Below, piece by piece: positions 1-4,629 of a stretch of 64,000 nt of DNA. Made by a program: the position numbers and the translations under genes. The DNA lies in the NCBI GenBank assembly GCA_944393665.1, contig CALYAX010000002.1:1-64000 (forward strand), given 5' to 3'. The notes below the pieces were generated by a model, which was not told where the DNA came from, did not search any database, and worked only from the letters and a program-made list of their open reading frames with translations. The stretch comes from an uncultured Alphaproteobacteria bacterium. Its GTDB lineage: Bacteria > Pseudomonadota > Alphaproteobacteria > RF32 > CAG-239. Positions within the stretch are counted from its first letter, which is position 1. Each line of letters starts with the position of its first letter.

Positions 1-228
1 GGGGTTAGGGTCGCCGTTGGGGGCGCGTCCGCGGGAGGAGATGGTATAAGGGCGGGTACAGCGCGGGGTGTACAAGGCGTAATAATCCGGCTCTGGGGCA
101 GGACGGGAAGCCGGTTGTGGCTGGGAGGTTGCGGGAGCAGCACGCTTTCTTTTGGTTTTTTGGGGCGCGGAAACCGGCAGGGGTTCAGTATCGGGAGCGG
201 GTTGGGAGATAATTTTTTTCTTGGGCAT
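1..228 (-). CDS. Pro/Ala-rich protein of unknown function (3' end outside window)
   Basis: I do not recognise this gene. Reading leftward from an ATG at 228 the frame stays open to the window edge for 76 codons. It begins MPKKKIISQPAPDTEP and continues with Lys/Arg- and Pro/Ala-rich low-complexity sequence, including KTKRKRAAPA, as in a disordered basic N-terminal tail. An in-frame ATG at 237 would add MNA. Neither start has a clear Shine-Dalgarno. The start codon lies only about 25 nt beyond an intrinsic terminator that ends a structured minus-strand RNA region, so expression may depend on read-through. The real domain probably lies beyond the window. Confidence 0.5.
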   Translation of the reverse strand, partial: MPKKKIISQPAPDTEPLPVSAPQKTKRKRAAPATSQPQPASRPAPEPDYYALYTPRCTRPYTISSRGRAPNGDPNP

Positions 229-255
229 AGCGTTCATCCGGTTAAAAAGTTGATA

Positions 256-284
256 CAAAAAACCGCCTTTGGATTAAAGGCGGT
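256..284 (-). terminator. Intrinsic terminator just before the Pro/Ala-rich gene
   Basis: On the minus strand CCGCCTTT and AAAGGCGG form a perfect stem followed by TTTTTTG. It lies about 25 nt before the start codon at 228 or 237, so it acts either as the end of the structured RNA or as an attenuator of the downstream gene. Confidence 0.7.
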
Positions 285-624
285 CGAGATGTTGAAAGGT
301 TATACAGGTATAACTCCGTCAGTCTTTAAGCCGCGCCGAAACGTGGCTCTGAACATACACAGACGGCATCTCGACCGGAGATCGAGAATATAAATAATAC
401 TGGTCAGTGTTTTAACCAGAGGTCGGCCGTCAAGTATGCTGTAATCGATGCCCGGCGGCGTTCCCCTACCTGTAAAGAACCTTTCAAAGTTCTCAAACCG
501 CTTGGTAAGCAGGTTCTGGGACTGAACGCAATTCTGAGTCCTGCGCCCAGTTTATCTGCTCCGCCGCAAAAAATCAAGCCTTTTGCTTGGGGCAGATGTT
601 TTACTTGTTTACTTCCTTAGGGTA

Positions 625-662
625 AACAAAACCCCCGCTTGTTGAAAAAACAAGGCGAGGGA
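625..662 (-). terminator. Intrinsic terminator inside the structured RNA region
   Basis: Read on the minus strand, CCCTCG-CTTGTT pairs with AACAAG-CGGGG and is followed by TTTTGTTT. It would end a first RNA of about 200 nt starting at the promoter near 823. Confidence 0.6.
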
Positions 663-829
663 GTTCAACAACTGCCCATACGAAACAGCCAATCTTATTC
701 GTCACCACGAGGGTGCTTATTTCGAAAGCTCCCTCAGAAAGAGGGTGGGGTTTCGCGTACGGGAAGCTGTTGAAGGCTCCGGCGGGTCTCCCCGTTAAGA
801 AACAGCGGCTGCCGTTTCAACCTGTGCGT

Positions 830-858
830 ATTATGACAATAAAATTTAAAATTGACAA
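830..858 (-). promoter_or_regulatory. Near-consensus sigma-70-type promoter for the structured RNA
   Basis: On the minus strand a -35 TTGTCA (853-858) and a -10 CATAAT (830-835) are separated by exactly 17 bp. The predicted transcription start is near 823. This strong promoter has no open reading frame behind it for about 600 bp, which supports an RNA gene. Confidence 0.65.
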
Positions 859-1426: not shown

Positions 1427-2680
1427 ATGAAGACTAAATTTAATTACCTCAAAATTTATGAACGTTTTGTTGAACTCAGTGCCGGCGCTTTATTTATGAA
1501 AGCCGGATTGGAAAAATATAAAATTGCTTTTAGTCTGGTCCGGAGAAAACGTAAAGAAGTAGACCATGTTGTGTGGATTGCTCCTTCTTATTATCTGGCA
1601 ACGGAAGACTATGTTAACGATATTAAATCGGCAGCGGGCAGGCTGGCCGACAAAATTGTCTTTTATTCAATAGAAAACATTTCCCTGAACGATGCCAAGT
1701 ATCTTCACCTGTATAATCTGGCAACAGATTTCCGGGTTTTTTGCATTGTTGACGAAAGCATTACCATTAAAAACACCGAAGCGGGCCGCACCAAGCGTCT
1801 GCTGGCGATGAAACACAAATTTAAATACCGGCTTATTTTGTCGGGGACGCCGCTGACGCAGGGGCTGATTGACCTTTATTCGCAGGTTCAGTTCATGGAC
1901 TCGGCTATTCTGAATATGACCGAAACCCAGTTTATGCATAATTTTTTGCCGTTTTATGAAGATGATTTTGAAACCTGGCGCCGCTGGTCGAACCCGGAAC
2001 ATGAGGCGCAGCTGGTGGAGATGATCCGCCCGTATCTTCTGGCCTGTGATTTTGAGGATAATGTCAAGATTACCTATCACAACGCGGATTTTAAGCTTAC
2101 GCCCAAAGAAGCGGAGGTTTACCAGTTCGAAAAAGAAGATTTTTTGAAAAATAAGGAACAGGTTGCGTTTTTACAGGTTGTACAAAGATTTCAATATCTG
2201 TATACTATTTGCAAAAATAAAGTAAATGCTTTGTTTAAGCTGGTTGACGAAATTCTCGCCCGTAACGAGAAAGTGATTATTTATACTAAATTTTTGAGTG
2301 AGGTTAAGTTTTTTAAAGAAGCGGGCGGCTTCGGCGAACATAAATTTGTGGTGATGTCGGGGAATTCGAATAAAATAAAGGCGTTGAATAGATTTGAAAA
2401 AAATGTTGATATTATGATTTGTACGTATAAAGTAGAGTCACCCAGACTTAATTTGAAAGGGTGCAATAATATTATCTATTTTACCCAGACATTTGACTAC
2501 AAGGACAAAATTCAGACGCTTACCAGTTTTTACAATAAAGAAGAAATTAAGCTGAATATTTATGATTTTTGGGTTGATACAAGGCTGGAAAGCTTGATTA
2601 AAGATAATCTGTACCGTAAAAAGAATGTATTGAAAAACGTGTGCAGGATTATGTCGAAAGATGAGGCACTAAAACTATGA
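1427..2680 (+). CDS. SNF2-like helicase-fold protein with degenerate P-loop
   Basis: A 417-residue protein with the two-lobe layout of phage-type SNF2/DEAD-like helicases. Box II is VDES (about residue 108), motif III is SGTP (about residue 140), and a C-terminal lobe contains VIIYTKF and a motif V-like SPRLNLKG. Where a P-loop of the type MGLGKT is expected, near residue 25-30, the sequence reads AGLEKY: the lysine is kept, but the second glycine and the Mg-binding threonine are lost. The final motif lacks the usual QRxGRxxR arginine finger. It may therefore bind DNA or partners without being an active ATPase. It overlaps the next gene by 4 bp (ATGA) and is visibly richer in AT than most of the window. 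The ribosome site is weak. The helicase-family call is firm; the role is unknown. Confidence 0.75.
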   Translation: MKTKFNYLKIYERFVELSAGALFMKAGLEKYKIAFSLVRRKRKEVDHVVWIAPSYYLATEDYVNDIKSAAGRLADKIVFYSIENISLNDAKYLHLYNLATDFRVFCIVDESITIKNTEAGRTKRLLAMKHKFKYRLILSGTPLTQGLIDLYSQVQFMDSAILNMTETQFMHNFLPFYEDDFETWRRWSNPEHEAQLVEMIRPYLLACDFEDNVKITYHNADFKLTPKEAEVYQFEKEDFLKNKEQVAFLQVVQRFQYLYTICKNKVNALFKLVDEILARNEKVIIYTKFLSEVKFFKEAGGFGEHKFVVMSGNSNKIKALNRFEKNVDIMICTYKVESPRLNLKGCNNIIYFTQTFDYKDKIQTLTSFYNKEEIKLNIYDFWVDTRLESLIKDNLYRKKNVLKNVCRIMSKDEALKL

Positions 2681-3978
2681 AGATATATCTTGATAAAAAT
2701 GTTTTTGAAGCAACCATGGAGCGTATTAAATTTGCGTTTGATAACTTTGACAACATTTATGTTTCGTTTTCCGGCGGCAAAGACAGCGGTTTGCTGCTGA
2801 ATATGGTTCTGGACTATAAACGGAAGCATAATATCAAGAAAAAAATCGGCGTTTTTCATCAGGATTTTGAGGCGCAGTATCAGCTGACCACTGATTATGT
2901 TACCAAGATGTTTGAGGACAATATTGATGATATTGAGCCTTACTGGGTGTGCCTGCCGATGGGGTCGCGCTGCGCGGTCAGCAATTTTCAGATGTACTGG
3001 TATCCCTGGGATGATGAAAAAGAAGAACTGTGGGTTCGCCCGATGCCGAAAATGCCTTATATCATCAATCTGAAAAATAATCCTTTTGAATTCTATAAAT
3101 ATAAAATGGCTCAGGAAGATTTGTATGCCGAGTTTGGGCAATGGTATGCCAAACACCATGAGGGGACCAGTATCTGTATGGTGGGTATCCGTGCCGATGA
3201 GTCGATTAACCGTTACCGGGCTTATGCCAATACCCGCAAGATTTTAATGAAGAACTCCCAATGGACGACCAAAATGGGCAAGAACTTTTACAATGCCTAT
3301 CCCTTGTATGACTGGTCGACCAAAGATGTGTGGATTGCCTATGGCAAAAAGGGGTATGAATACAATCATATTTATGACTTGTATTATAAGGCGGGGCTGT
3401 CAATCAGCCAGATGCGGGTTTCTTCGCCGTATCATGAAAATGCCAAAGAGAGCCTTAATCTTTACCGGGTTTTGGAACCGGGTGTCTGGGCCAAAGTGGT
3501 CAACCGGGTCAACGGGGCAAATTTTGCCGCCATGTACGGCAATTCCAAGCTGATGGGCGTGGGCAAGATTACGCTGCCCAAGGGGCATACCTGGCGCAGC
3601 TATGTTAAATTTTTGTTAGCCACTCTGCCGGACTCGGTCCGTAAGAATTATGTGGCTAAATTTAAGACTTCTATCCGCTTTTGGTGGAAAAAAGGTGGCG
3701 TGGTGTGTGATGAGGCTTTGAAGGAGCTTGAGTCATGCAATTACCGTATCAGGCGTAATGGTCCGAGCGGGTACAGCAAAGACAAGGACAAAATCCTGTT
3801 TTTGGGGACTCCCGATGATACCGATGATATTAAGTCGACGATTGACATTCCCTCGTGGAAACGTATGGCGATTTGTATTCTCAAAAATGACCATTTATGC
3901 AAATATATGGGATTTGCGCAGACTAAAAAGCAAACTCAAAGAGAAAAAGAACTTCTGGAAAAGTATAAGAGTTTGTAA
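2677..3978 (+). CDS. ibrA: IbrA-type PAPS-reductase-family protein (DUF3440)
   Basis: A 433-residue member of the N-type ATP pyrophosphatase superfamily. The PP-loop SGGKDS sits near residue 32 in the context YVSFSGGKDSGLL, followed by a PAPS-reductase-like core and the long C-terminal extension typical of DUF3440/IbrA. In E. coli, IbrA and IbrB were described as prophage-carried co-regulators of eib genes. The fold is shared with DndC and with PAPS reductases, so adenylation-type or sulfur chemistry on nucleic acid is possible but not shown. It is translationally coupled to the SNF2-like gene upstream and 11 bp from the ParB-like gene downstream. Family assignment is strong; substrate unknown. 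Confidence 0.88.
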   Translation: MKIYLDKNVFEATMERIKFAFDNFDNIYVSFSGGKDSGLLLNMVLDYKRKHNIKKKIGVFHQDFEAQYQLTTDYVTKMFEDNIDDIEPYWVCLPMGSRCAVSNFQMYWYPWDDEKEELWVRPMPKMPYIINLKNNPFEFYKYKMAQEDLYAEFGQWYAKHHEGTSICMVGIRADESINRYRAYANTRKILMKNSQWTTKMGKNFYNAYPLYDWSTKDVWIAYGKKGYEYNHIYDLYYKAGLSISQMRVSSPYHENAKESLNLYRVLEPGVWAKVVNRVNGANFAAMYGNSKLMGVGKITLPKGHTWRSYVKFLLATLPDSVRKNYVAKFKTSIRFWWKKGGVVCDEALKELESCNYRIRRNGPSGYSKDKDKILFLGTPDDTDDIKSTIDIPSWKRMAICILKNDHLCKYMGFAQTKKQTQREKELLEKYKSL

Positions 3979-3989
3979 GGAACAAAACT

Positions 3990-4505
3990 ATGGAACAATT
4001 TGTCAGCCCTGTGTATAACGTTCAGGCTGTGCCTGTCGACAAGGTACAGGCGAATGATTATAATCCCAATCGCGTTGCCCCGCCGGAAATGAAGTTATTG
4101 GAGCTTTCTATCTGGGAAGATGGTTTTACCCAGCCGGTGGTTTGTTATTATGACAAAGAAGCCGATAAATATATTGTGGTTGACGGATTTCACCGTTACA
4201 CCATTATGAAAACCAGCGACAGGATATTTGCCCGCGAGCGGGGAAAGCTACCGATTGTGGTTATTGACAAAGATTTGGGCGAGCGCATGGCCTCGACTAT
4301 CCGTCATAACCGTGCCCGCGGCAGCCATAATGTAGATCTGATGAGCAATATTGTGGCCGAGCTGGTTGAAATGGGCAAAAGCGACAGCTGGATTTGTAAA
4401 AATATCGGCATGTCGGCTGATGAGCTGCTGCGCATGAAACAGGTGACCGGTCTGGCTGCTTTGTTTAAAGACGAGGAATTTTCCCGCAGCTGGGAAGTGA
4501 AGTAA
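3990..4505 (+). CDS. ibrB: IbrB-type ParB-like domain protein
   Basis: A 171-residue protein with a ParB/sulfiredoxin-type N-terminal domain: VDGFHRY around residue 69 stands for the ParB DGxHR box, and RHNRARG (about residue 108) for the second conserved arginine motif, followed by a helical segment. It is the usual partner of IbrA. ParB-type domains are now known as CTP-binding or nuclease-like folds, but no specific activity can be read here. An AAGGA ribosome site precedes the ATG. It ends the cassette and is followed by a strong terminator. Confidence 0.85.
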   Translation: MEQFVSPVYNVQAVPVDKVQANDYNPNRVAPPEMKLLELSIWEDGFTQPVVCYYDKEADKYIVVDGFHRYTIMKTSDRIFARERGKLPIVVIDKDLGERMASTIRHNRARGSHNVDLMSNIVAELVEMGKSDSWICKNIGMSADELLRMKQVTGLAALFKDEEFSRSWEVK

Positions 4506-4530: not shown

Positions 4531-4554
4531 AGGCAGCGTAAAGCTGCCTTTTTT
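4531..4554 (+). terminator. Terminator of the SNF2-like/ibrA/ibrB cassette
   Basis: AGGCAGC and GCTGCCT form a 7-bp stem around GTAAA, followed by six T. It closes the three-gene unit before the aldo/keto reductase. Confidence 0.85.
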
Positions 4555-4629
4555 GTTGGGGCGGGCTTTAAGCCGGGGCAGGGGAGATTATATTAGTCTT
4601 GATTTTAATATTCATTGAAGGAGAGGTTC

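Follow-up and report, generated by a model that had tools for sequence, protein, structure and literature searches.

A phage-type SNF2–IbrA–IbrB cassette carried as an inherited chromosomal operon, probably with an inactivated SNF2 motor, in the CAG-239 family of Alphaproteobacteria

Introduction

What does a cassette that couples a SNF2-like protein to IbrA and IbrB do in the chromosome of an uncultured alphaproteobacterium? Sandt et al. (2002) reportedly described IbrAB as a co-activator of the eib genes carried by prophages in E. coli ECOR-9, and to our knowledge such co-activation of prophage genes is the only activity reported for the pair. Our literature search found no paper giving IbrAB biochemistry or dealing with IbrA, IbrB and a helicase together, although two papers treat DUF3440 alongside ParB. 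A link to phages has been seen at the level of expression: when phages were induced in the carbadox-treated swine gut, over-expression of ibrA reached 73-fold, alongside that of phage genes (PMC5550749). In E. coli K-12, the ybdNM operon adjoins citR and is repressed by CitR; YbdN is listed as a PAPS reductase/DUF3440 protein and YbdM as a ParB-like protein (PMC9068703). A preliminary description of the locus studied here had proposed a transferred module for sulfur-based DNA modification or anti-phage defence. We followed up this proposal.

Results

Layout of the cassette

We analysed a window of 64,000 nucleotides (the whole stretch of DNA under study). The source genome measures 1.74 Mb in 42 contigs, and because the window begins where contig C2 ends, it shows the neighbours of the cassette on the downstream side only. 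The features are as follows:

1427–2680, plus strand: SNF2-like gene, putative pseudo-ATPase (417 aa; two-lobed SNF2 fold, ATPase motifs probably lost)
1505–1519, plus strand: Walker A (motif I) position, GLEKY here versus GTGKT in phage
1751–1774, plus strand: motif II region DESITIKN, retained in the window copy
2513–2545, plus strand: motif VI position, without either arginine (alignment positions 367 and 370)
2677–3978, plus strand: ibrA (433 aa; PP-loop/PAPS-reductase-like core and C-terminal DUF3440 domain)
2770–2787, plus strand: IbrA PP-loop SGGKDS (residues 32–37; invariant in 67 sequences)
3990–4505, plus strand: ibrB (171 aa; ParB/Srx-like protein)
4182–4196, plus strand: IbrB DGFHR motif (D65, G66, H68 and R69 conserved in ≥97% of 158 sequences)
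4302–4322, plus strand: IbrB RHNRARG motif (likewise conserved in ≥97% of these 158)
4531–4557, plus strand: rho-independent terminator-like hairpin and T run 3' of ibrB (stem 4531–4549)

The SNF2 gene overlaps ibrA by 4 bp (2677–2680), ibrA and ibrB are separated by 11 bp (3979–3989), and a single terminator-like hairpin follows, so the coupling of the three genes noted previously was confirmed. The family calls were secure for SNF2 and DUF3440, and that of IbrB had PHROG support. The first protein matched SNF2-rel_dom (PF00176, 45.7 bits; cut-off 24.9) and the helicase group phrog_62, and the second DUF3440 (255.1 bits; cut-off 25) and phrog_2302 (IbrA type, E 1.9e-113). The third matched phrog_2159 (IbrB type, E 2.5e-80 over residues 2–170), its ParB_N score being 24.4 bits against a Pfam cut-off of 26.3. 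The helicase-fold partner of the preliminary description is thus right as to SNF2 family and fold, but the absence of its ATPase motifs had been overlooked. Downstream lie housekeeping genes for an aldo/keto reductase (AKR) and a CDGSH protein, then LpxK, KdtA, a DUF374-like protein and Lon (the last four assigned by reading the sequences); the housekeeping setting claimed for both sides is therefore seen on this side, the upstream side being beyond the contig end. GC content is 0.32–0.44 across the SNF2 gene versus ∼0.49 downstream, which gives the cassette an AT-rich 5' half.

The trio in phages and other bacteria

Do the three genes travel together elsewhere? A search of other genomes showed that they do. 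We found 80 viral contigs that encode a relative of IbrA; IbrB was nearby in all of them and a SNF2 gene in 67, and the order SNF2–IbrA–IbrB was found at 66 of these 80 loci and at 48 of 49 loci of the CAG-239 family. The adjacent trio is present in isolated phages (Streptococcus phages Pika and CHPC877, Lactobacillus phage phiAQ113) and is rearranged in Fusobacterium phage phiFN37 and in Flavobacterium phages. The proteins of Pika, CHPC877, phiAQ113 and phiFN37 are 43–47% (IbrA) and 63–70% (IbrB) identical to those in the window. In bacterial genomes outside the CAG-239 family, the SNF2 partner was present in 14 of 31. The SNF2 helicase appears to be optional, because helicase-free IbrAB pairs occur in ordinary chromosomes (Ruminococcus; E. 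coli K-12 ybdNM, PMC9068703). The closest viral IbrA (66% identity) came from a 124-kb viral contig with the order IbrB–IbrA, and no SNF2 gene was found in the 13 kb examined. Our search among the viral IbrA relatives found no phage donor of the exact trio, the nearest viral IbrA being the one without a helicase.

Inheritance within the CAG-239 family

The cassette was carried by 21 of 35 genomes of the source genus and by 17 genomes in other genera of the family, and all carriers have all three genes, some of them cut by contig ends. IbrA of the CAG-239 family forms one clade (SH-aLRT 96). In the source genus the usual site lies between M16 peptidase–Pgi–MutL–ZIP on one side and AKR–LpxK–KdtA–Lon on the other (exceptions include loci L065 and L067), and in other genera the cassette occupies different positions, shared among members of a genus, next to ordinary genes such as those for transport, sugar or flagellar functions. 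Of the 14 members of the source genus without IbrA, 13 could be placed in a 32-genome KdtA+Lon tree, where all of them fall into one clade (100/100); a single change suffices for the pattern of presence and absence. One loss is thus enough to explain all absences tested. The single IbrA clade, the mostly constant site and the single loss together indicate that the cassette is inherited and currently not mobile in the genus, and vertical inheritance is also the simplest explanation across the whole family.

The vertical pattern on the KdtA+Lon tree rules out the recent horizontal transfer that had been read from the AT-rich 5' half: the bias stands as composition, where it coincides with the fastest-evolving gene, and fails as a sign of recent transfer. 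In the host lineage the site is mostly constant within the genus, and the neighbours that we read were housekeeping genes rather than mobile or defence genes. Fixed positions with no link to mobile DNA, which the preliminary description had named as evidence against its proposal, are therefore largely what we found inside the CAG-239 family, though not outside it. Separately, two genomes of the family, represented by loci L054 (3608–4375) and L067, have a DNA methyltransferase-like gene (recognised by reading motifs) close to the cassette.

Loss of the ATPase motifs from the SNF2 protein

Can the SNF2 protein still work as a motor? Our alignment comprised 47 full-length copies from the family, 66 from viruses and 12 from other genomes. 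The Walker A signature GxxK[ST] was present in 66/66 viral and 11/12 other-genome copies but in 1/47 family copies, and the motif VI arginine pair (R..R) in 65/66, 12/12 and 0/47, respectively; 76 of the 78 viral and other copies kept both motifs. Motif II (DE) was found in all 66 viral and all 12 other copies and in 29 of 47 family copies, E110 being missing in 18, and motif III is gone from most family copies. Averaged over the family, retention was 0.25 in conserved ATP-site columns versus 0.66 in other conserved columns (Mann–Whitney p 0.0006, a guide value as columns are not independent). The protein thus has the fold and family of an active SNF2 ATPase and lacks both Walker A GxGK[ST] and the motif VI arginine pair. 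Judged from these residues, every full-length family copy examined has probably lost the ability to hydrolyse ATP, and motor function is probably gone.

Alternatively, the protein could still be an ATPase that uses non-canonical residues, given that D109 is invariant in the family and that K or R occupies the position of the Walker lysine in 46/47 copies. However, where Walker A should have G29 and T31 and motif VI its two arginines, the family has unrelated residues, not the same ones from species to species, and this variation points to lost constraint rather than to a substitute site. We consider a surviving ATPase very improbable, the least likely of the explanations weighed here.

Fold and constraint retained in the SNF2 protein

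The AlphaFold2 model of the SNF2 protein is confident (pLDDT 87.5) and matches two-lobed SNF2 structures in the PDB (TM about 0.7–0.78 to CSB, ISWI and Mot1). Several residues outside the ATP site are invariant in the family and differ from phage, e.g. S188, Q354, T355, K361, W382 and T385. In the four pairs with dS below 0.8 the dN/dS of the SNF2 gene was 0.03–0.15 (about 0.03–0.16 in the closer pairs), similar to LpxK/AKR, and that of ibrA in the same four pairs was 0.01–0.02. The SNF2 gene evolves fastest of the three. At equal IbrA identity (75–80%), mean SNF2 identity was 44% in the family versus 63% in the other set. In most family copies the SNF2 frame overlaps or nearly abuts ibrA.

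These data bear on the possibility that the SNF2 gene is a decaying passenger, which is kept through translational coupling to ibrA while IbrAB works alone. The motif loss in the family and the fast divergence of the gene would fit this, as would the helicase-free IbrAB pairs and a single genome (L062/L156) in which two frames make up the SNF2 gene, through either an assembly error or real decay. A passenger would, however, hardly be expected to show 47 full-length frames in the family, family-wide invariant residues outside the ATP site, dN/dS in the above range in close pairs and a confident two-lobed model, and we regard simple decay as unlikely. A SNF2 protein under constraint, with its motor inactivated, agrees better with these observations, and its fold and conserved non-ATP residues suggest that it has probably kept DNA binding.

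IbrA and IbrB

IbrA and IbrB show a different picture in the family, with strong purifying selection, intact active-site motifs and very slow evolution. About 60 IbrA columns are invariant across the 67 sequences. The predicted fold of IbrA is nearest to PAPS/APS reductases (CysH), the ATP sulfurylase CysD and FAD synthase, and a sequence search of the PDB with IbrA gave no match. The catalytic ECGLH motif of CysH (ECG[LIV]H) and any CxxC are absent from IbrA, and we rejected an identity as PAPS reductase CysH on the missing C-terminal ECGLH cysteine motif. From their conserved sites, both IbrA and IbrB look active in the family.

Is the cassette a defence or DNA-modification module?

The weak point of the proposed sulfur-modification or defence module is membership in any known system. 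IbrA scored 18 bits against the DndC equivalog TIGR03183 (cut-off 290.4), and a search of all 42 contigs, with the assembly's completeness put at 100%, gave no DndD. The ZorD equivalog of Zorya type I (NF041790) gave 15.2 bits against a cut-off of 1500, and none of the curated NCBIfam defence models was reached by the cassette proteins. PADLOC similarities (DndC, ZorD, DpdE and DrmD) were weak and partial. Proximity to defence islands found no support either in the window or among the neighbours read in several other genera. With a single IbrA clade, one loss, housekeeping neighbours and failed Dnd tests, a transferred module of this kind is unsupported.

Spelled out, the proposal would make IbrA and IbrB the writers of a sulfur-based or other DNA mark, and the SNF2 protein the part that senses DNA without the mark or processes it. 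Membership of the PP-loop and ParB superfamilies is common to this cassette and to DndC and DndB, respectively, and the PADLOC similarity to DndC and ZorD, although weak, goes in the same direction, as does the much faster divergence of the SNF2 partner than of IbrA, which might be expected of a target-recognition part. Moreover, an inactive SWI2/SNF2 domain has been described in DndH, and DNA binding has been proposed for it (PMC10853773). On the other hand, the DndC and ZorD scores fall far below curated cut-offs, no DndD was found in the genome, the genes that we read next to the cassette in several genera are of the housekeeping kind, and no Pfam nuclease domain was found in the three proteins besides the ParB-like fold. 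Vertical inheritance interrupted by one loss, together with the very low dN/dS of IbrA, also sets the cassette apart from most defence systems. DNA marking therefore seems improbable to us, though less so than decay of the SNF2 gene; IbrAB may still have a modification chemistry other than the Dnd type.

A structured RNA upstream of the cassette

On the minus strand upstream of the cassette, window positions 250–830 form a strongly folding region (RNA z-score -6.2) that ends in a terminator-like hairpin just before an XRE/HTH regulator gene (window 1–258, minus strand, truncated at the contig end). Contig C23 has a second full copy (85% identical), placed before a regulator gene that is intact (272 aa), and between the two full copies 11 of 177 pairs are compensatory. 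An Rfam search upstream of the cassette gave no known RNA family. A core of ∼110 nt (window 615–732, minus strand; L254–L268) recurs across the genus in up to nine places per genome and consists of a covarying hairpin with an AATAAG box on either side and, at the 3' end, a terminator-like stem, with double-sided changes in 8/24 predicted pairs. The HTH regulator has six matches in the source genome, and several copies of the core lie <1.2 kb upstream of its paralogues. The core is a candidate small RNA family.

Discussion

We propose that an ancestor of the CAG-239 family took up a phage-type SNF2–IbrA–IbrB cassette, which would then have become a vertically inherited chromosomal operon. The SNF2 protein of the family would no longer translocate on DNA and would serve as an ATP-independent scaffold, probably a clamp on double-strand DNA, that positions IbrAB. 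IbrA might activate a substrate with ATP, by the adenylation/pyrophosphatase chemistry of PP-loop enzymes, and IbrB might be a nucleotide enzyme of the ParB/Srx fold; together they could act on DNA or on a DNA-bound regulator and so control gene expression. We give this reading as a whole (a domesticated phage cassette, an ATPase-dead SNF2 scaffold, active IbrAB and gene regulation as the output) a probability of roughly 0.55. Its parts differ in strength: domestication together with motor inactivation is very probable, and gene regulation as the output of IbrAB is a tentative suggestion, in line with the co-activation of prophage genes reported for E. coli ECOR-9. An inactive SNF2 protein as the DNA-binding part is plausible because DndH has an inactive SWI2/SNF2 lobe (PMC10853773). 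A bolder version, in which throughout the family the ATPase-dead SNF2 protein is a permanent DNA-bound subunit of an IbrA–IbrB complex that derives from a phage cassette with an active motor and carries out new DNA- or transcription-linked chemistry, seems doubtful to us.

The IbrAB pair is widespread across phages and bacteria. As the same cassette comes with a seemingly live motor in phages and a dead one in the CAG-239 family, it offers a natural experiment that separates the role of the SNF2 protein as a motor from its role as a binding partner. It would also be a clear case in which a host has made phage machinery into an operon of its own, stably passed on by inheritance.

How does the cassette compare with known systems? 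Its SNF2 protein resembles the helicases ZorD of Zorya, DpdE and DrmD in SNF2-family similarity, but their models are about 750–1300 positions long and the protein here has 417 aa. Dnd phosphorothioation likewise combines PP-loop and ParB superfamilies and has in DndH an inactive SWI2/SNF2 lobe (PMC10853773), whereas IbrA fails the DndC model and is without CxxC, and the genome yielded no DndD; in DndH, the lobe is a single domain within a longer chain, while here both lobes make up a separate protein. E. coli IbrA/IbrB (the ECOR-9 island and the K-12 paralogues YbdN/YbdM) are also DUF3440 PP-loop and ParB-like proteins, but the description of K-12 ybdNM mentions no SNF2 partner (PMC9068703). 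The phage cassette is the nearest counterpart in composition, with the same three protein families, mostly in the same order and closely spaced. It differs in that the phage SNF2 protein has intact Walker A and motif VI, both of which are lost in the window copy, and in that the cassette in the window is a chromosomal operon without adjoining phage genes.
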